DNA of 64,000 nucleotides from Cenococcum geophilum 1.58. Lineage: Eukaryota > Ascomycota > Dothideomycetes > Gloniales > Gloniaceae. A model generated the notes under the pieces. That model had not been told where the DNA came from. It did no database searches and saw nothing but the letters and a program-made list of their open reading frames with translations. Of this stretch, positions 2,305 through 59,541 are shown piece after piece. The translations under genes were made by a program, and so were the position numbers. Within the stretch, counting starts at the first letter, position 1, and each line of letters begins with the position of its first letter. The DNA lies in NCBI GenBank assembly GCA_001692895.1, contig KV748222.1:1-64000 (forward strand), read 5' to 3'.

Positions 2305-2490
2305 TATAATGGCGCTAGGGCACCGCCCCTGTGATGTCTATATGTAGCCTAGTTAGGGGCTCGCTTAGAGACTTAGCTTGTGTATATAGACCTATCCTTT
2401 CCTTAACCTCCTTCTACTCCTTAGCTTAGTATCTTTATAATACAGCATTCTACAAGCTTCGGTTTAGAGGCATTTATACAAGCCGTAACA
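2305..2490 (+). repeat. 5' LTR of element 2305-5822
   Basis: 186 bp, beginning TATAATGGCGC and ending AAGCCGTAACA. It aligns without gaps to the 3' copy at 5637-5822, with transition differences. The leading TG has become TA in both copies; the CA end is intact. Confidence 0.9.
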
Positions 2491-2871
2491 TTATACTAAG
2501 CTTACCCACCTAAGGGGGACTTTATTCGTTTTAAAGCTCCCTCTTTACCTCGCCTAAAAAGGCCTAGATAATCTCCTACCCCCGTTCCGCGTGTTCTAAA
2601 AAAATACGCGTTAAACACCCCTAGCTACGCGTCATTAACGCGTTAAGTCGCTATTATTAATACTAGGAGCCGGTATTTAAGCAGCTAGAAGGTCTTTTGT
2701 GGATAAGGACAACTGCCTAGGAAGGCAAAAATATCTTACTCCCCCTAACCTTTTCGATTAATATAGAGTTGTACGAGCTACAGAGACGACCTTAGTTAAG
2801 ACTTAGCCTAGTACTACAGAGAACGATATAGTGATCCTATTACTAAGCCTAGTACTAATCCCGTAGTATCA

Positions 2872-3040
2872 GCTAAGATAAGCTAAGACATAACCCAAGC
2901 CGTGCTATTGGGCAGTAGGTGTATGTTATCCGCGAAGTCCTCTAGTATGCATTAGGTTTGGGCCGACGGCTAAGATAAGCTAACTTGTGACCCGCGCCGT
3001 GCTATTGGGCGGTAGGTGCATGTTGTCCGCGAAGTCCTCT
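2872..3040 (+). repeat. 72-bp direct repeat pair
   Basis: Copies at 2872-2943 and 2969-3040 share GCTAAGATAAGCTAA at the start and CCGCGAAGTCCTCT at the end. In the well-aligned second half the differences are transitions (for example GGCAGTAGGTGTATG against GGCGGTAGGTGCATG), showing RIP acting unevenly on two copies. Confidence 0.85.
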
Positions 3041-3188
3041 GGAACAAATTCTACCCGTATCCTCTAGCACAGACTACGCTGCGATAACCACCCCGATTGA
3101 TACTAAGCTGTATAAGGAGAGATGAAAGTGATTAGGAAGGACCTAACGCTTACACCGTACTGCTACCCTAACCCAAACCGACCGTACA

Positions 3189-5178
3189 ATCGCGCCGATA
3201 TGCCTACGATATAACTCTCCGACTTGTCTATAAACGCCCTACAGACACCTATCGAGTTCTCATTAATAACCACCGTACCTAATCGACCCGAACCTTACTA
3301 TCGACCTAGGTAGTCCCTCGATCTTACAGCCGAATATATCTATAACATAATCCTATGTATAAGGGTACTAGGAGCCCAGGGGAGAATTTAAGTAATTTAT
3401 AGCACTCTTAATTAGGAGAACAGATTAGGAGATTTATTCCGATTTATGGCACTCTCTAATAGCTCTATAGATGAGCCTGTTTATTAATATAACCTCTTAC
3501 AAACAATTAACGCGTTTCTCTTAATAGCCATTTATATGACCTCCTACGAATGAGACAGCCTACTATTATAAAAGCATGTCTTGCCAGTCGTTAACAAGAA
3601 TCGAAATATCGACACGTACCTTTTTGATACCTCTTTTAATACCTAAATCTAACAACAATAGCGCCGATACGCCTGCTATTGCGACTTCGACAACGACCGT
3701 ATGAGTTCATCGACGATCGACTGCCTCCCTTATTGATTCGATCGTCTTCTTCGCCCGCGGTGATCCTTTTTAACTGACACTAAGCTACGCATACTAAGGA
3801 ACGACCACGGTTAATACTAAGTTATACAAGCTTTACCTTAGGCATTTATACACTTCGACAACGAGGTTAATACTGAACTGTGTAAGCTTTAACAATGAAA
3901 TCGATTTGGACGAACTGGATAATAATCGTGCCGTTACGCCTGCGACCCGAATGCGATTCGAATGCGACCCGAACGCGATTCGCATGCAAACCCGACCGAA
4001 TGATAGCGCCGATATGCCTGCTATCACTTGACGCTTGCACCGTACTGCCACCCTAAACAGACAACGATCGTGCTGATATACCTACGATCTTGATTACCGT
4101 CGCGCCTATATGCCTGCGACCCATCAACCGACCGATAGACGAGCTCTGCGTTCGACCACTATCGCTACCCGACGCTTGCACCATACTGCTACCCAAATCT
4201 GACAAGAAACTCGTGCCGATACGCATACGAGCCGACAAGATTCCGTGCCGATTTGCCTACGGAAAATGAACCTGTCGCTGGCACCGTACTGCTATTACAA
4301 TAGACCTTTGCTGCTCTGCCTGCAGCCGACCGACCGAACGATCGCGCTAATCTGCCTGCGATCTACCAATCAAATGATCGCGCCGATACGCCCGCGATCT
4401 ACGAACGAGACAACGATCGTGCTGATATGCCTACGATCTTAATTACCGTCGCGCCGATACGCCTGCGATACGCCTGCAATTCGAATGCGGCCCGAACGTG
4501 CTTCGAATGCAAACCGACCAACCGATCGTGCCGTTATGCCTACGATCCACCAACCGAACGATCGCGCCGATACGCCTGCGATCACGAACCACGAACTAGA
4601 CAATGATAGCGCCGATATGCCTGCTATTACAATAGACCCCTGCTGCTCTGCCTACAGCTGACCAACCCTAGCTGCTTAATCAGCAGCCGACCGACCCTCG
4701 CTGCTCTGCCTGTAGCCAACCGACTTCTACTACCTTGCTTGCAGTAACAACTGTATATAAGGAGGACCTTTGCCCCTTATACGACCCTGCCGCTTATACC
4801 GTACTGCTACCCCCAAATAGACAACAGCTGTGCCGATACGCCTACAGTCTGATTAACCGAATAATCGTGCCAATACGCCTGCGATCAATTGACCAACGAT
4901 AGCCGATACGCCTACTATCTACCATCTAACGCTAGCACCGTACTGCCACTGGACCTCTGCTGCCTCGCCTGTAGCTAAACTAATACCTTGCTGCCTCGCC
5001 TGCAGCACCATAATCGACTTCTGCTGCTTTGCCTACAGCACCACAAACGACTTCTACTGCTTCGCCTATAGTATCAACTGTATACAAGGGAGAGCTTTGC
5101 CCCCTAGAATACGACCCCGTCGCTAGCACCGTACTGCTACTAAACGGACAAGAGCTCGTGCCGATACGCATGCGAGCT
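3189..5178 (+). repeat. Array of short hairpins with constant core and covarying arms
   Basis: At least 19 units share a 12-nt core close to GCCGATACGCCT flanked by complementary arms of 4-7 nt that differ between units. Examples by arm start: 3657 AATAGC/GCTATT, 4002 GATAGC/GCTATC, 4066 GATCGT/ACGATC, 4099 GTCGC/GCGAC, 4210 CTCGT/ACGAG, 4241 TTCCGT/ACGGAA, 4340, 4376 and 4560 GATCGC/GCGATC, 4415 and 4524 GATCGT/ACGATC, 4828 CTGT/ACAG, 4898 GATAG/CTATC, 5153 AGCTCGT/GCGAGCT. Where dense, units are spaced about 33-45 nt. Two further hairpin types are interspersed: core ACCGTACT with TGGC/GCCA or TAGC/GCTA arms, and GCTGC-TCTGCCT-GCAGC variants. No continuous reading frame runs through the array. 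Function unknown. Confidence 0.85.
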
Positions 5179-5352
5179 ACAATTCCCTAACCCTCCCACC
5201 CTTATTAAAACTTTTTTCACCTGCCTTTTTATAAGAGGGGGGTTAAGGGGGCTTTTTTTATGGCTCGGGGCGCGCTATAATAAAAGGGGGGATAGTAGAG
5301 CTAGGAGGTACTGGAGTTCTAGAGGAGGAACGACGACCAACAGAGGGCTCCT

Positions 5353-5545
5353 AGCGATATACCTCTCGCAGCAGCAGGAGCTGCAGAACGGCTGCCTACC
5401 CTACGTTAACTGGGTATAGCGATATACCCCTCGCAGGAGCTGCATAACGGCTGCCTGCCCCACGTTAACTAGGTATAGCGATATACCCCTATAGCAGCAG
5501 GAGCTGCAGGACTGCTGCAAGTCCTACGTTAACCGGCATCGCGAT
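5353..5545 (+). repeat. Roughly 60-bp tandem repeat with GCAG/CTGC stems
   Basis: Three units begin AGCGATATACC at 5353, 5418 and 5477, each running through a GCAGGAGCTGCA-like palindrome, a CTGC block and ACGTTAAC. It sits between the hairpin array and the polypurine tract. Confidence 0.75.
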
Positions 5546-5636
5546 CGAGCGCCAGATGCTAGATTTTTTTTCTTTCTCTTTCTTTTCTATAAGGGGATAA
5601 AGCCTAAGGGCAGGCTTCTTTAGAAGGGGGGGGTAA

Positions 5637-5822
5637 TATGACGGCGCTGGGGCACCGCCCCTACGACGTCTACATACAGCCTAGTTAGGGGCTCGCTTAG
5701 AGACTTGGCTTATATATATAGACCTATCCTTTCCTTAACCTCCTTCTGCTCCTTAGCTTAGTATCTTTATAATATAGCATTCTATAAGCTTTAGTTCAGA
5801 GGTATTTATATAAGCCGTAACA
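5637..5822 (+). repeat. 3' LTR of element 2305-5822
   Basis: 186 bp, beginning TATGACGGCGC right after the G-run polypurine tract and ending CCGTAACA, followed by the TSD copy ACTTA at 5823-5827. Confidence 0.9.
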
Positions 5823-5827
5823 ACTTA

Positions 5828-8800: not shown

Positions 8801-10030
8801 AAATCTCCCAGTTTACGGCTACCTTCGTTAAAGACTATGCCCTATGCTTTTGCACTAAGACCCCCTATTCTACCCTACCTAGTTTCCTAAAACTACTAGA
8901 ATTACCCGCCTACCTATAGACCAATATCTTAATTAACTATATTATAACGCTGCTAGTATACTAACGCTATAGTAAGATATATAAATATATCCTTATTATT
9001 ATAGACCGCCTAACTAAAATATAATACTTTATTTTAGTAACAGGACTCTTAATAGAGGAGCTAGTTAATGGCTTTGTTAATAATATATATAAGTTCTATA
9101 GTATACTAAGCACGATTATCTCCGATTGCGGTATATAATTTATTAATAACTTCTAGTAATAACTAAGTAAACTCCTTAAGATAATCTTATAACTAAGCTT
9201 AGCCTAATACCTAAAATTATTAACGCTGTTATAAATAAATACCTTTATGCTTTTATTAGCTTTATATAGGATAACTAGGTTAACTACTTACTACTTATTA
9301 AGTTTACTATAAATAACCAAGTTAATAAAAGTATAGGTATCTCCCCGTTTTTTATAAACTATAGCTTTAACCTTCGCCTTAAAATTAAGCCTGCTAGCCT
9401 CCGCCTACTAATACTATTAGCATAAATAAAGAAGGAGTTCTTTTACGCAGACTCTGTAGCCAACCGCTTTGAGTAGATATTAATATAGCTTAAGGCCCTA
9501 GCCCGGATTTTATAGCAATACTATAAAGATAATACTAATACCTATAGGGATGAGAGCGCGTTATTCTATAAAGGTGATATAGTTATAGTTAGCTTAGAAA
9601 ATATAAAGATAAATAGACCTAAGAAAAAATAGGATGATAAATGGGACGGCCTGTACCCCGTACTCGTAGTATACTAAGGGGTAGTTATAGTAGACCTCCT
9701 AGACTATATTTAAGTAAATAAATCCTTTTATATATCTAAGGTCCGCCTTTAGGCTGCTAAAGAGATCCCTAGTTAAGTAAATATTAATACTATAGAGCGC
9801 CGTAATATATAAAGATAAGTAGTAGAGAGAGATAATAACGGTAATATAGAAGATAAATGGGAGTTTAAGAAAATCCTTAATATATACGACGAAGACCCCT
9901 AGGGCCTAACTTATAAGATTAAATAGAAATATTATAAGGATATAACCTAGCAGCTAGAGAAAGACCTAAAGGGTTGCGAATAAGCTATATAGCGCTTTTA
10001 TAAGCAACACCCTAAGAAGCCAGAATCCCC
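5828..10030 (+). pseudogene. Gypsy A pol remnant (protease end, RT, RNase H, integrase, chromodomain)
   Basis: The protease starts before the insertion (LVDS near 2209-2225) and ends with a hydrophobic segment and IPWL-like motif near 5950. RT motifs appear at about 7220 (IRIYYNY.GLN) and 7528 (AYLNNILIF, the decayed YLDD box, with Asp changed to Asn). RNase H lies at about 7965-8220 (ASGGV, then NKELLAIIKALE). The integrase core is at about 8920-9140 (IIIDRLTK, then IISDCG). A chromodomain-like end (WEFKKIL) occupies about 9850-10025. In-frame TAA/TAG replace Gln and Trp throughout, so it cannot encode an active polyprotein. The chromodomain places it among chromoviruses, whose chromodomain is thought to guide integration into heterochromatin. 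Confidence 0.8.
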
Positions 10031-28861: not shown

Positions 28862-30060
28862 CTATAAAGCTCTACACGAAGCTCTACACAAAGCTCTGCA
28901 CGAAGCTCTGCACGAAGCTCTATACGAAGCTCTGCGTATAGAGGCTCTGTACGAGGCTCTGCACGAAGCTCTACACGAGGCTCTGCACGAAAGCTCTACA
29001 CGAAGCTTTGCACGAGGCTCTACACGAGGCTCTGCACGAAGCTCTACACGAAGCTTTGCACGAGGCTCTACACGAGGCTCTGCACGAAGCTCTACACGAA
29101 AGCTTTGCACGAGGCTCTACACGAGGCTCTGCACGAAGCTCTACACGAAGCTTTGCACGAAGCTCTACACGAAGCTTTGCACGAAGCTCTACACGAAGCT
29201 TTGCACGAAGCTCTACACGAAGCTTTGCACGAAGCTCTACACGAGCTCTACACGAAGCTCTACACGAAGCTCTACACGAAGCTCTACACGAAGCTCTACA
29301 CGAAGCTCTACACGAAGCTCTACACGAAGCTCTACACGAAGCTCTACACGAAGCTCTATACGAAGCTCTACACGAAGCTCTGCATAAAGCTCTACACGAA
29401 GCTCTACACGAGGCTCTGCACGAAGGCCTACACGAAGCTCTGCACGAAGCTTTGCATAAAGCTCTACACGAAGCTCTACACGAAGCTCTACATAAAGCTC
29501 TGCACGAAGCTTTGCGCGAAGGCTCTACACGAAGCTCTACACAAGCTTTGCACAAGGCTCTGCATGAGGTCTACACGAAGCTCTGCACGAAGCTCTGCAC
29601 GAAGCTCTACACGAGGCTCTGCACGAAGCTCTACACGAAGCTCTACACGAAGCTCTACACGAAGCTCTGCACGAAGCTCTACACGAAGCTCTGCACAAAG
29701 CTTTGAAGCTCTACACGAGGCTCTGCACGAAGCTCTACACGAAGCTCTGCACGAAGCTCTACACGAAGCTCTACACAAAGCTCTGCACGAAGCTTTGCGC
29801 GAGGCTCTACACGAAGCTCTACACGAAGCTTTGCACAAGGCTCTGCATAAGGCTCTACACGAAGCTCTGCACGAAGCTCTACACAAGGCTCTACACGAAG
29901 CTCTACGTACAGAGGCTCTGCACGAGGCTTTGCGCGAAGCTCTNNNTANGGAGGCTNTACACGAAGCTCTGCACGAAGCTCTACACGAAGCTCTACGTAC
30001 AGAGGCTCTGCACGAGGCTTTGCGCGACATACGGAGGCTCTACACGAAGCTCTGCATCGG
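28862..30060. repeat. 12-bp satellite array (CACGAAGCTCTA/G)
   Basis: About 100 copies of a 12-bp unit with minor variants, free of stop codons in several frames. The plus strand reads repeated His-Glu-Ala-Leu (or Thr-Lys-Leu-Tyr/Cys) and the minus strand Ser-Cys-Arg-Ala. It lies in the gypsy B linker between protease and RT. A variant GTACAGAGGCTCT interrupts at about 29910 and 30000, and there are ambiguous bases at 29944-29957. Long frames across it are a property of the repeat, not evidence of genes. Confidence 0.9.
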
Positions 30061-42575: not shown

Positions 42576-42796
42576 TGTTACGGCACCGTTACGGCACCGT
42601 TACGGAACAACTACGGCACTGATACGGACCCTAGTTAGGGGCTCAGCTGGAGCCTTAGCGCTGTGTATATAGACGTGTCCTTTCCTTAACCTTCTTCTAG
42701 TCCTTAACTTAATATTCTCGTTAATAGACTACCAATCGTACAGGCTTGCGCGTCCCTCTTGCCGTGCTCGTACCTCAATTAACTGAGTCGCTAACA
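42576..42796 (+). repeat. 5' LTR of element 42576-45470
   Basis: 221 bp, TGTTACGGCACCG to GTCGCTAACA, with an internal TTACGGCACCG duplication. The 3' part (GACTACCAATCGTACAGG onward) resembles the gypsy B LTR. Confidence 0.93.
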
Positions 42797-43614
42797 TTAT
42801 ATTAAGTCCAATCACCCTTTCTTCCTAAGAAGGAACTTAAAAATATCTATAAGGACACAGAATAGGACCCCAAGGACATAGAATAGGACCCTAAGAACTA
42901 GAACTAGAACTAGAACCAGAACTAGAACCAGAACTAGAACTAAAACCGGAACCGGAGCTAGAACCAAAACCAGAACCCTAAGAACATAAACGGAACACAA
43001 ACGGAACACGAACAGCACACGAACATGACCATGACCCTAAGAACTAGACACGCACGGACAAGGACCTCTAAAAGAACCTACCAGAAATTACCTAATACCC
43101 CTATATCTAGCGAATACCAGATTAATTTAACTGGGTTGATCTAATTAAACTAAAGCCTTAATATAGGCCTATTACCTAATCGAATCAATTAAATTAAGGC
43201 CTTCTAGGGAGGTATAAACGATCAAATTAAGCTTAAAATAAGGTTTCGCCAAGACGCTAACTGGACCCTTCTTAACCCTTTCAAATTAAAAGCGAATGAC
43301 CTCGACGACTAGTTATACCAGACGTTAATCGTTTGAACGTACAGCTAGCGAACAAGGAACGATTTGGTTAAATCGATTGATTAAATCAAAATTAAAAGGA
43401 ATCAATTTGGACCACTTAAAGAACCTACGTGTCTTAACTTCTGAGCAAGCCTCTGCTATTGGTTCGCTTAGGTGTATGTGATTAAAGTTAAATCTAACCT
43501 TTAATAACTGCCTACCCCGCAGGACTTTATTATCATTCTCATTAAAATATACGAGTATTTATTACCTAGACATTAAATATACGCGACAGAACCAGTAGCA
43601 ATATCACTGATAAT

Positions 43615-44475
43615 ATGGCTCTATTAGCTCTTCCGTTCGAACCGTCCTATACGGCGTTAAAGAACCTCCGTCAAAAGGTCTCTAATTATACCACTACCTC
43701 CGTTATCCTACCTCATCGACCTAAGAACCTCTCTACGGATCTCCACCCCTACCTTGACAACGCTATCGTGACCTTAAGCACCTTAACGGCCTATCTATAC
43801 GATAATAATGCTCCCTGGGCTGTAAGGGTAGTAGAGGTTAAAAAGGGGGTAGAAAGAGTTGATATAAAAGTCAACGAAGTCAAGGCTGAGGTTGCGGAAG
43901 TTAAAGCTTAGGTCGATGAGGTTAACAAAAAGGTCGATGAGGTTAATAAGAAGGTCGACGAGGTTAAGACGGAAATTGCGGAAATCAGGACGCAAATGAA
44001 GTTAATGGATAAACGTCATACGACACAAGTCAACGACGTTAAGTTGCAAGTAATGTCGTTAGAAATGTAAATGGACGATGTTAAGAATAGCCTTTTTAAC
44101 TAGACGCAAAGCCTTAATAACCACATATATATTCAACTGAATTCTATGTGAAAATGGCTCGACGACTAGATTGAACCTATTACAGCTTATGTTTAGGATA
44201 GAGACTGCTATAGGTATATTGTGGCTAAAGGTTTTCCTAATAGAGTTAAAGACTTCTGGAGGCTTGTTTTAGACCCTAAGACCCTAACAGATCTCGCAAG
44301 ATATTACTTAGTATAAGACTGGGAATGATGGAAGAGGGCTACCTTAAGGGACACCAACGTTAGCTGTTATATGGAACTAAAGGATGTAGTTACCGCGCAT
44401 CTATATAAGTGTCTTAGGGCCCTGGCTATAATATGGGGCCTATAGTACAGCGTTCTTAAACCCCCGAGACCTTAA
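43615..44475 (+). pseudogene. Coiled-coil gag-like ORF remnant
   Basis: Starts ATG at 43615 (MALLALPFEPSYTALKNLR) and stays open to a TAG at 43909, after which the same frame continues with stops only where Gln or Trp is plausible. Residues from about 85 carry heptad-like repeats (VDEVNKKVDEVNKKVDEVK), a coiled coil of perhaps 80 residues. The following part (GFPNRVKDFWRLVLDP, DLARYYLV, LRALAIIWGL.YSVLK) resembles a conserved globular domain seen in fungal hypothetical proteins, as I recall it, without an assigned function. It may be the element's structural (gag-like) protein. Three or more stops make the present copy inactive. Confidence 0.65.
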
Positions 44476-45022
44476 CGCCAAGGCCTAGGAAAGCGCAAAG
44501 TAGAGACCGATAATGGGTCAAGACGAGTTAGGGCACAAAAAGACCAGGATAACGATTCTGTAACAGGATCAGAATTAACCTCTTTATAAGATATCAACGA
44601 TTAAAGGTCTTAGCCGAGTAGGGTAATATCGGTGTAGATACGGGTACCTTCTAATACAGAGAGAAGAGATCTTGTAGAACTGCTAATAGTAGCTAAAAGA
44701 GAGGATCCGGGAAGACGTAGCCCTAAGTCTATATATTAGGAGCCTAGTAATTCTCCTGAGCTTTAATAGAGGATTAGATCTACTCCTTCTACTAAATAAC
44801 GGAGGAATCGGATACGTTATTAGGACGGTTAATCGGTCTATACCTCTGAACTTATTGGACGATATTAGGACCGCAGCTCTAGGGACCGCAGCCCTAGGGG
44901 AAAGCTTACTCAATCAGCCCCTAGCACGGTACCTTTTGGATCAGCCACTCGCGAGGGACTTTAGCTTCCTTATCTACCAAACAAACGGACGGTCAACCCC
45001 GACCTAAACAACCGACCCTAAC

Positions 45023-45140
45023 GCTGGCACCGTACTGCCAAGGACTAGACAACGATAGCGCAATACGCCTACTATTACGACCTAATGACGATCGTGCCGA
45101 TGCGCCTGCGATCTACTAACCCAACCCAACCGGCCAACCT
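45023..45140 (+). repeat. Hairpin module shared with element 2305-5822
   Basis: Contains TGGC-ACCGTACT-GCCA (about 45024-45039), GATAG / CTATT arms around a CGCAATACGCCTA core (45054-45076), and GATCGT-GCCGATGCGCCT-GCGATC (45090-45113). The cores match the array at 3.2-5.2 kb. Confidence 0.8.
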
Positions 45141-45249
45141 CTGCTGCTCCGCCTATAGCGACAATTCAGAATGGATCTACAATGTGGCTTTCTTAACGGG
45201 GAGGACAACTACAAAGCCTAAGGGCAGGCTTTTGTGGAGAGGGGGGTAA

Positions 45250-45470
45250 TATTACAGTACCGTTACGGCACCGTTACGGAACAACTACGGCACTGATACG
45301 GACCCTAGTTAGGGGCTCAGCTGGAGCCTTGGCGCTATGTATATAGACATATCCTTTCCTTAACCTTCTTCTAATCCTTAACTTGATATTCTCGTTAATA
45401 GACTACCAATCGTACAGGCTTGCGCGTCCCTCTTGCCGTGCTCGTGCCTCGATTGACTGAGTCGCTAACA
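45250..45470 (+). repeat. 3' LTR of element 42576-45470
   Basis: 221 bp, TATTACAGTACCG to GTCGCTAACA, gap-free against the 5' copy and followed by TSD CTAGC. Confidence 0.93.
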
Positions 45471-45475
45471 CTAGC

Positions 45476-57604: not shown

Positions 57605-59541
57605 TTACTCTACGAGCATTCCTTCGTCAACCTCCCAATCCTCCCAACTTGCCTGGTCGAATCCATTTGGCCTACTTGACCTCAAGAATCCAATCCAAGT
57701 CCCCTCAATATCCACAACCGGCTTAACAGCCTTGACAGAAGCACGGAATCCACGGCTATAGCATTCCTGCATGTGTCTATCCCCAAACAACTCAGGATGC
57801 ACCCTCCGCATCGTCTTCAGCGCCCTCTTCCCAACTTCATCTACAGAATCATGGTGCCTCAGCTCAAAGAACTCAGCATCATGCGCCTGCCTAAGCTGAG
57901 CCATCATCTCGGAGGAGTATAGACCGATATGGAGCAAATATATGTCGTACTGACACAATGACGTCGTGCCATAGTAACTCCCTCCATACTTTGCGCGCTT
58001 ATAGAGGCCTACAAGCGCTGCGATTGTGCCCATGCACCCAGTCCCATAGTCACTCATTGGAAATGGAGGTACGACAGGCTCATTCAGGCCCATACACAGC
58101 CCTTGATACCATGCTACCCCAGTCACACAGTCTGCAATCTGTTGCCAGCCAGGGCGCGAAGCCCATTCGCCAACGTGCCCGAAGCAATCTTCAGCAACGT
58201 AGACGATACCGCGTTGTCGGTGCTTGGTGAGTTCTACTATCTGCTTAGGGCCGTATCCAAGGCGCTCAAGCGACCCAGGGCGGTAGCCGTCCAGGATTAC
58301 GTCGGCGGACTGCAGTAGGTCCTCGAAGGTCTTACGATCCCGAGAATCACGTAGGTTAAGTTCTGCGGTGTGCTTTCCAAGATTGCCATCGACTTGAAAG
58401 AATGGGACATCGCTGAGGTTTGGGGAAGTAATCTTAATTACATCAGCGCCATATTCTGCAAGACCGCGACCGATTGCGGGGCCGGCGATGATGCGGCAAA
58501 GCTCCAGAGCACGAATACCAGACAGGATTTGTGGTTTTGGTGCTCTTGATGCGGTGCACGGAAACGGCGCTGGAGGGGAAATTGTCTCCAAGGTATCGAC
58601 TCTCCATGGGGGCTCTCGAATGAGATCTCGACCCTAATATAACGTCAGACCACAGCGTGAATATACACACACAGTTTTTCATGAGTTATTACGTGACTAG
58701 TTGCCTCGAACTCCTCCCATTTTAGGCATGTAACGCCTGCCTGCTTGACCTCTGCGTTCATCTCTTCCAACTCCTTGGCGCTGAACTGCTTCACATGATC
58801 CTCGATGAGCTTGATACATTGGTGGTAGTCCGTCATGTCCGGGCGAAACCCTTTCAGTCCGACCATGTTTAATGCGGTTGTAGCTTCTAGCGACCCATGC
58901 AGGTGAAAATATTCGCTAGGGTTCTTTGTTTCGTAGAGATTCGCTGAGAGCCTGCGATAGAGGATCATGCAGGTGAAAATATTCGCTAGGGTTCTTTGTT
59001 TCGTAGAGATTCGCTGAGAGCCTGCGATAGAGGATTGACTGAGCTTTGAGGAGATCGGTATCTTGAAGAGGATCAATTGATACTGGCGAGTATGTCTCGA
59101 GTATGCCTTACCCTTGAGTAGCGTCTTGACGTTGGGATGTGCCTTATTCATACCACCGACTGTCGCAAGATATGTAGAGAACAGGAAGGCCGATGCTCGT
59201 TCCCAATCCACAACCATCTTCCGCTTCCGGTCGCCGTAAGCAAGGTTTGCTATTCCCGCTGCCACTCCAGCCTCAACTGCCTTAAGAGCCGATATAGCTT
59301 CTGTTTGCTTGAAGGGACTTGGGAAGTACGGACTTCCCGTGTTAGCAGTAGTAAAGTCGACATTGGTGATGAGCGCATAACATTCCTGCGGTATCTGGCC
59401 TTTGGCGAGTCGGAGCAAGAGCTGTAGAGATTTCCGAGTCTCATCTAGCATCGAATAGCGGGGACCGTTGGTCCCATTAGTGCCAGTCATTCCATGATGG
59501 ATATTATGACGGTTATTCTCTGCTCCGCTAGAGGCGACCAT
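57605..59541 (-). pseudogene. CaiB/BaiF family III CoA-transferase, disrupted by 70-bp duplication
   Basis: Exons complement(57605-58633, 58693-59541), with a 59-nt intron (GTAATA...TATTAG) joining the halves. Family III transferases move CoA between carboxylic acids. The C-terminal half carries the family core (LSGIRALELCRIIAGPAIGR, GLAEYGADVIKI, ADVILDGYRPGSLERLGYG). Conservation also implies a 50-nt intron at 59062-59111 (GTAAGG...TTCAAG), turning KTLLK|DTDLLKAQSILYRR into the family sequence. A perfect 70-bp tandem duplication (58896-58965, 58966-59035) then shifts the frame and gives a TAG at 58915-58917. If that intron is retained, 50 + 70 = 120 nt restores the frame and yields a continuous 625-residue product with about 40 foreign residues. 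The gene is therefore broken as normally spliced, or expressed as an altered isoform, unless the duplication is an assembly artefact. Confidence 0.75.
58896..59035. repeat. Perfect 70-bp tandem duplication in CoA-transferase exon
   Basis: Copies 58896-58965 and 58966-59035 are identical, beginning CATGCAGGTGAAAATATTCG and ending CCTGCGATAGAGGAT. Lack of any difference implies a recent event or an assembly error. A length of 70 is not a multiple of three. Confidence 0.95.

Follow-up and report, generated by a model that had tools for sequence, protein, structure and literature searches.

An array of covarying, bulged hairpins inside non-coding LTR retrotransposons of Cenococcum geophilum

A stretch of contig KV748222.1 of Cenococcum geophilum 1.58 contains many short units in which a near-constant 12-nt core is bracketed by arms that differ between units. 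A reading of the sequence letters (hereafter the original prediction) suggested that these arms stay complementary in spite of their differences, and that selection or a copying mechanism preserves the resulting stem-loops. What carries such hairpins, whether their pairing is really kept, and what might keep it, are the questions that this locus raises. The window analysed here is the whole stretch of 64,000 nucleotides from which the array was picked out, and the genome around it was searched for further copies.

The hairpin array and its pairing

The array lies on the + strand at positions 3182-5183 and comprises about 19 type-I units, with type-II and type-III hairpins interleaved. The core, allowing two mismatches at most, occurs at 18 places in 3189-5178, one of which (4464) coincides in part with the adjacent unit and does not count as a hairpin of its own; two further units with three or four core mismatches (loops 4072-4083 and 4346-4357) were found by direct reading, so that the predicted number of at least 19 units was right. 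Type-I units, all on the + strand, include those with arms AATAGC/GCTATT and core GCCGATACGCCT (3657-3680), ACTCGT/ACGAGC, forming five pairs, and core GCCGATACGCAT (4209-4232), TTCCGT/ACGGAA (4241-4264), GATCGC/GCGATC with an exact core (4560-4583), GATAGC/GCTATT (4605-4628), and GCTCGT/GCGAGC with a U.G closing pair (5154-5177). The type-II class is represented by TAGCA-CCGTAC-TGCTA (5124-5139, +), a hairpin with a hexaloop of the same form (YNNUAY), and the type-III class by GCTGC-TCTGCCT-GCAGC (4310-4326, +). Linkers within 3900-5180 are A/C-rich and G-poor (A 0.30, C 0.32, T 0.21, G 0.17).

The commonest spacings of type-I units are 36, 32, 37, 67 and 78. A coding repeat was considered and rejected, as these spacings do not all divide by three and the frames are broken, the longest being of 100 aa; coding is thus an unlikely source of the pattern, as originally argued. 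At the gathering score, Rfam 15 gave no match in the window, and with relaxed filters a single match was obtained in 2305-5822 (13.7 bits, where 45 is required; E 4.4). Tandem repeats overlap the array. Elsewhere in the window, a minisatellite with about 94 copies of a 12-bp unit, open in several frames, occupies 28867-29996, and a 70-bp tandem duplication with 100% matches (58896-59035) lies within the ORF at 58645-59541.

When folded on the sense strand, a type-I unit consists of a variable stem, a CU bulge on the 3' side, a clamp of two G-C pairs (GC/GC) and a YNNUNY hexaloop. For a wider sample, the genome (177.19 Mb, 162 contigs) was searched, and loci found by the core itself were taken in listing order (L009-L028, 10 kb each; L029-L048, 2.5-3.5 kb), giving 41 arrays together with that of the window. 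In these arrays, stems were also selected independently of the core, as five Watson-Crick pairs round a 12-nt loop. The loops of the 321 stems so obtained are bimodal, with 137 at four changes or fewer from the core, none at five, and 184 at six to twelve. Among the 137 core-like loops, G1 is kept in 133, C2 in 136, U6 in 136, G9 in 132, C10 in 137, C11 in 132 and U12 in 134, and positions 3, 4, 5, 7 and 8 are variable. Hairpins with 12-nt loops number 251 (shuffled mean 91), those with 6-nt loops 189 (97) and those with 7-nt loops 166 (95). Variation in the type-II and type-III stems of the same arrays consists mainly of transitions.

That the arms differ yet stay complementary was confirmed, on a larger scale than had been noted and above shuffled, slid and tree-based controls. 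For 18 units of the window, in an alignment where the overlapping 4464 row was moved by the aligner and the 4902 row has a shifted arm, 89.9% of 139 pair cells hold standard pairs, against 76.7% (sd 1.9) when shuffled and 40.3% at most when slid; the covariation score is 0.369, against 0.142 and at most 0.144, respectively. Five of the eight pairs change on both sides, a number also reached by 33 of 500 shuffles. The excess is present in other copies as well. Over the 41 arrays, 234 of 328 core-selected units have at least four of five Watson-Crick arm pairs, whereas an exchange of arms among units would give about 82, and 287 are complementary at the purine/pyrimidine level at all five places. 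At arm position 3, the genome-wide counts are C-G 327, A-T 105, C.T 1 and A.G 2, so that 432 of 435 are complementary. Under a custom-made tree-based null (293 distinct 30-mers, a tree built on the 30-nt sequences, 40 simulations), arm positions 5, 3, 4 and 1 are among the nine best of 435 column pairs, with E at the floor of 0.025 that 40 simulations allow; arm position 2 does not stand out. The other five of these nine (three adjacent pairs, one two columns apart, and one joining left position 6 to right position 5) are not arm pairs, and shared descent was therefore not fully removed.

The carrier element, its relatives and their possible helpers

The array is the interior of a non-coding LTR retrotransposon of 3518 bp (2305-5822, +), a non-autonomous element recognized by its LTR pair, an exact 5-bp target-site duplication (TSD) and a relative of the empty site, present in locus L021 (9202-9324 / 9320-9997). 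The two 186-bp LTRs (5' LTR, 2305-2490, +; 3' LTR, 5637-5822, +) are 89.3% identical; the first starts with TA, taken as TG altered by a transition, and the second ends with CA. They are flanked by ACTTA at 2300-2304 and 5823-5827. A polypurine tract, AGAAGGGGGGGG, was recognized by eye just 5' of the 3' LTR (5622-5633, +), and + is assigned as the sense strand because of it; in L015, the other element inspected, such a tract was seen just before 6147. By visual inspection, no obvious tRNA primer-binding site was found 3' of 2490. No usable gag-pol is present, the longest stop-to-stop frame touching 2305-5822 being of 100 aa; a bacterial-code scan gave no tRNA genes, and phage records gave no match to the queried sequence. 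In the leader of the element, a segment of about 70 bp is present twice (2868-3045), both places matching relatives.

The genome contains 231 copies of the 14-mer GCCGATACGCCTGC, 104 in forward and 127 in reverse orientation, and a single copy of the pattern read backwards. LTRs were examined in 20 loci (L009-L028), and all 20 are LTR elements. The LTR pair was direct in 18 of them; in L017, LTRs were recognized through matches to related LTRs, and in L013 once a nested Copia element was allowed for. Twenty LTR pairs (from 18 loci, one with two pairs, and the window element) were tested for a TSD, with the termini searched for up to 22 nt from the BLAST boundaries and TA permitted at one of them. 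A 5-bp TSD was exact in 17, had one mismatch in two (that of L018 doubtful) and was lacking in one, and under the same rule 22 of 1000 random frames show an exact duplication. An exact TSD together with both TG and CA was found in six of the 20 pairs, against none of 1000 random frames.

By similarity, 22 LTRs fall into four groups of 11, 9, 1 and 1. Between the window element and the loci of the group of nine, as well as L019, the match is confined to the array (about 4101-5140), bar short pieces: two LTR pieces of 75 nt that match inside L016, and a piece of 51 nt whose match in L028 lies outside its element. L015 has cores in common with the window element, but no match to the element at that cut-off. 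Since the window element matches other groups nearly only in the array, the array acts like a cassette that these elements share. The window contains a further LTR element with such hairpins (42578-45473, +; LTRs 42578-42799 and 45252-45473, 94.6% identical), with type-I, type-II and type-III hairpins at about 45020-45160. Its type-II hairpin, TGGCA-CCGTAC-TGCCA, is a compensated version of TAGCA/TGCTA. A related element of GalEa-like kind, L050, has LTRs and a leader, but no core with one mismatch or fewer.

Which elements could supply proteins to these non-coding ones? The available text of a survey of 30 genomes, Cenococcum geophilum included, describes fungal GalEa Copia elements as carrying mostly CTGATCAGT or CTAATTAGT (CHSeq1) directly 3' of the 5' LTR (PMC5445492). 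CHSeq1 was tested in 20 of our elements, L013 and L017 excluded. Exact CTAATTAGT follows the 5' LTR in L010, L016, L019 and L027; it has one change in L028, two in L023b (the first element of L023) and L025, and three in L023. Thus, of the eight elements outside the window's LTR group (L015 set aside), four carry the exact site, one differs from it by a single change, and the remaining three by two or three. In the window's group (11 tested) and L015, CHSeq1 has three or four changes at best: near the window LTR end, the best match to either form has four changes in nine, and among the other ten elements of the group it likewise has four in nine, or three in L026. The presence of CTAATTAGT in L010, L016, L019, L027 and L028 makes a GalEa helper likely for these five. 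Judging from this site, GalEa elements probably act as helpers for part of the hairpin elements, and the window's group probably depends on another source.

For the window's group, no helper was found among the best 40 matches per LTR query, out of 2300 and 459 first-look candidates. Two LTR pairs about 10 kb apart were considered as possible autonomous helpers that share these LTRs, but nested insertions explain them best. Likewise, a Copia reverse transcriptase 2.3 kb upstream of the array in L013 was rejected as an array-carrying helper, as it has its own 117-bp LTRs and is nested. The Copia element concerned (RVT_2; L013 6308-6424, with L051) is inserted in the hairpin element. A hairpin element also contains, at about 5190-5780 of L013 on the minus strand, a decayed coding-like stretch with cysteine pairs, seen by eye between two copies of a purine-tract-like repeat; it may be a captured gene fragment.

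Our tentative preference, which we hold at well below an even chance, is that non-autonomous (LARD/TRIM-like) LTR retrotransposons carry the array as a cis-acting RNA cassette, which would serve as a packaging or sorting tag read by Gag. The sense RNA of the element would fold into a string of short hairpins with A/C-rich linkers between them. The lower stem of a type-I unit would need only to be paired, so that its letters could drift in compensated steps, and an RNA-binding protein would read the near-invariant CU bulge, the GC/GC clamp and the U of the YNNUNY hexaloop. Protein-less elements would have to move in trans, and the reader would then most likely be the Gag or the particle of a helper LTR element, for which the array would act as a multivalent packaging or sorting tag. 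Gag or a particle appears to be the single most likely reader because elements without usable coding sequence depend on a helper for packaging. We infer all three steps: transcription of the array, its binding by a protein, and the identity of that protein as Gag.

The cassette is common to elements with probably different helpers, and the Gag version is thereby weakened, as one Gag would not serve all of them; a host protein, or a cassette that is exchanged, gains by the same token. Two further points weigh against the preferred reading: L050 has LTRs and a leader without a core of one mismatch or fewer, and the best 40 matches per LTR query gave no helper for the window's group. It is conceivable, if still rather less than probable, that several protein-less LTR groups with different helpers share a multivalent tag that recruits one RNA-binding protein, from a helper particle or from the host, and that the cassette spreads between families. 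Somewhat unlikely in our judgement is the alternative that the hairpins are selected RNA structures for a host-facing step, such as nuclear export, stability, a block to translation or escape from RNA silencing. The structural evidence applies to it equally, and it would be at ease with an array common to LTR groups of which only some have the GalEa site and which thus probably use different helpers. A host signal might, however, be expected to occur elsewhere too, and all 20 examined loci are LTR elements, a point that counts weakly as the loci were picked by the core.

Origin of the compensated changes and the strand that folds

The number of independent compensations is far smaller than the number of units; the copies descend from few events, with two to four compensated transversions. 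The 113 units with five Watson-Crick pairs fall into three transversion classes (five over six pairs) and have 17 distinct arms, ten of which occur in at least two units. These ten recurrent arms need at least nine two-sided changes, on the assumption of a single pair altered per event and no recombination, and two of those changes (four with the sixth pair) are required to be transversions. Hence, the arm covariation first noted is real, and the strength that so many units suggest is inflated by shared descent.

Repeat-induced point mutation (RIP) is active, as 72 of 106 C/T differences between paired LTRs lie before A. Differences between LTR pairs are mostly transitions (189 of 208, with 19 transversions), whereas the arms hold compensated transversions; RIP alone is therefore insufficient, and the claim that it does not explain the pattern was borne out. 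Some two-sided transitions may nonetheless be due to RIP on both strands, and the counting of every such transition as a compensation was dropped for that reason. Sixteen units have exactly one transversion mismatch (with no more than two of transition type), which is at the outermost position 5 in 13, at position 3 in two and at position 4 in one.

The core contains two CpGs with different fates. At C3/G4, which is unpaired, C3 to T (58) and G4 to A (51) are symmetric. At C8/G9, C8 to T was counted 94 times, in 32 loci, against nine of G9 to A, in six loci, the counts being taken over related copies that are not independent. The 94:9 contrast fits a structure in which G9 is paired with C2 and C8 is free. 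The G9-to-A form with C-G at arm position 3 occurs twice in the genome, and for the C8-to-T form the figure is 31 of the first 100 listed places with C-G at that position.

Wobble pairs and folding bear on the strand. Since insertion, the LTRs have mutated alike on the two strands (106 of 3747 and 83 of 2932 bases). At arm positions with paired neighbours, G.T was found 62 times against 28 for A.C; after relatives are collapsed, the ratio is 45:22, 30:19 or 17:9, and the excess shrinks. At arm position 3, genome-wide, T.G (44) exceeds C.A (25). Arm position 1 was dropped as strand evidence, being contradictory between backgrounds: among the matches listed, T.G and C.A number 13 and 3 with C-G, but 4 and 16 with A-T. 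The moderate excess of G.T over A.C points, moderately, to sense RNA. The dense part of the array (4200-4640) folds in the sense orientation with a z of -2.34, and two of 100 shuffles are as good, against a z of -0.77 and 20 of 100 for the antisense. Single type-I units fold moderately better than shuffles (z -1.75 to -2.29), and the type-II hairpin at 5124-5139, folded alone, no better (z -0.36). Taken together, the CpG-partner asymmetry and the strand-biased wobble would favour selection on RNA.

Could mutation, not selection, have produced the compensated stems? In reverse transcription or replication, a strand that snaps back might use one arm as the template for the other (quasi-palindrome correction), and compensation would then arise in a single step. 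Such a process is described for RNA hairpins in the available text of PMC8794818; it would need few independent events, and it would suit a change from C-G to A-T, which cannot pass via G.U and for which mismatched intermediates are very rare (3 of 435). Copying by itself, however, predicts no near-invariant bulge, clamp and loop U, nor the contrast of 94:9 with 58:51, nor the excess of G.T over A.C. No reverse-complement core (one mismatch or fewer) was found on the array strand in the 41 loci, although inversion of the loop is not required, and the mainly transitional variation of the type-II and type-III stems also speaks against it. We thus regard copying as an improbable full account. The copying mechanism of the original prediction remains the chief rival for the covariation, and leaves the near-invariant bases unexplained by itself.

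More improbable still is that nothing is maintained, and that the array is what decay has left of a minisatellite amplified from a small number of original hairpins, the pairing being inherited and RIP making two-sided transitions at matching contexts. The tandem repeats that overlap the array, the activity of RIP, and the finding of only three transversion classes over five pairs would all agree with this. Decay should nevertheless leave uncompensated transversions stem-wide, and 13 of 16 sit at the outermost position; moreover, pairing exceeds the tree-based null, and the near-invariant clamp and bulge need constraint. Least credible is action of the hairpins in DNA, as extruded or single-stranded protein-binding sites in integration or replication, where the same Watson-Crick covariation would be expected, but neither a wobble excess on the sense strand nor a folding excess on the sense only, and the array is internal, away from the ends that integrase uses.

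Among the functions offered by the original prediction, a structured element RNA or putative protein-binding sites provide the best fit. The stems are indeed kept above chance. Hairpins used in replication gained no support. The clamp, the CU bulge, the hexaloop, the type-II and type-III classes and the LTR setting had no place in that account.

Relation to known systems and significance

Like LARD and TRIM elements, the window element has paired LTRs, a short TSD, a purine tract and no usable coding sequence. Unlike them, it holds an array of hairpins with one loop and covarying stems that is common to several LTR groups, a feature for which no described LARD or TRIM member was found. The available text of PMC4558846 states that the internal region of TRIMs may hold a packaging signal conserved in structure only, and that such conservation makes packaging signals difficult to recognize. 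GalEa elements are alike in that some hairpin-array elements have CHSeq1 CTAATTAGT directly after the 5' LTR, but the GalEa CHS is one hairpin beside the LTR, whereas the array consists of many, deep in the interior, whose loop and bulge are different. The hairpins maintained by template switching, as far as these are described in the available text of PMC8794818, likewise combine compensated changes in the stem with a scarcity of visible intermediates, but the near-invariant bulge, clamp and loop base of the array would not come from switching alone.

A further likeness is to the dispersed packaging signals of single-stranded RNA viruses and the operator of phage MS2, where many stem-loops have a common loop motif and free stem letters. 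In the MS2 operator hairpin, a bulge lies two pairs below the loop. Here, the bulge is of two bases on the 3' side, the units are clustered, the host is a retroelement, and a capsid partner is hypothetical. Being natural, bulged and multivalent, the array resembles the MS2 arrays built in laboratories. Non-autonomous LTR elements were known already, and the array of covarying hairpins inside them is the new part: among the matches listed in the open-access literature, no description of a shared array of covarying, bulged hairpins in such elements was found.

How the particles of other elements choose the RNAs of protein-less ones is a standing question about LTR elements. With hundreds of natural variants of one hairpin, in which tolerated and untolerated changes can be told apart, the packaging question becomes testable in one fungus. 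The arrays could also help to decide whether compensated stems arise by selection or by template-switch copying.
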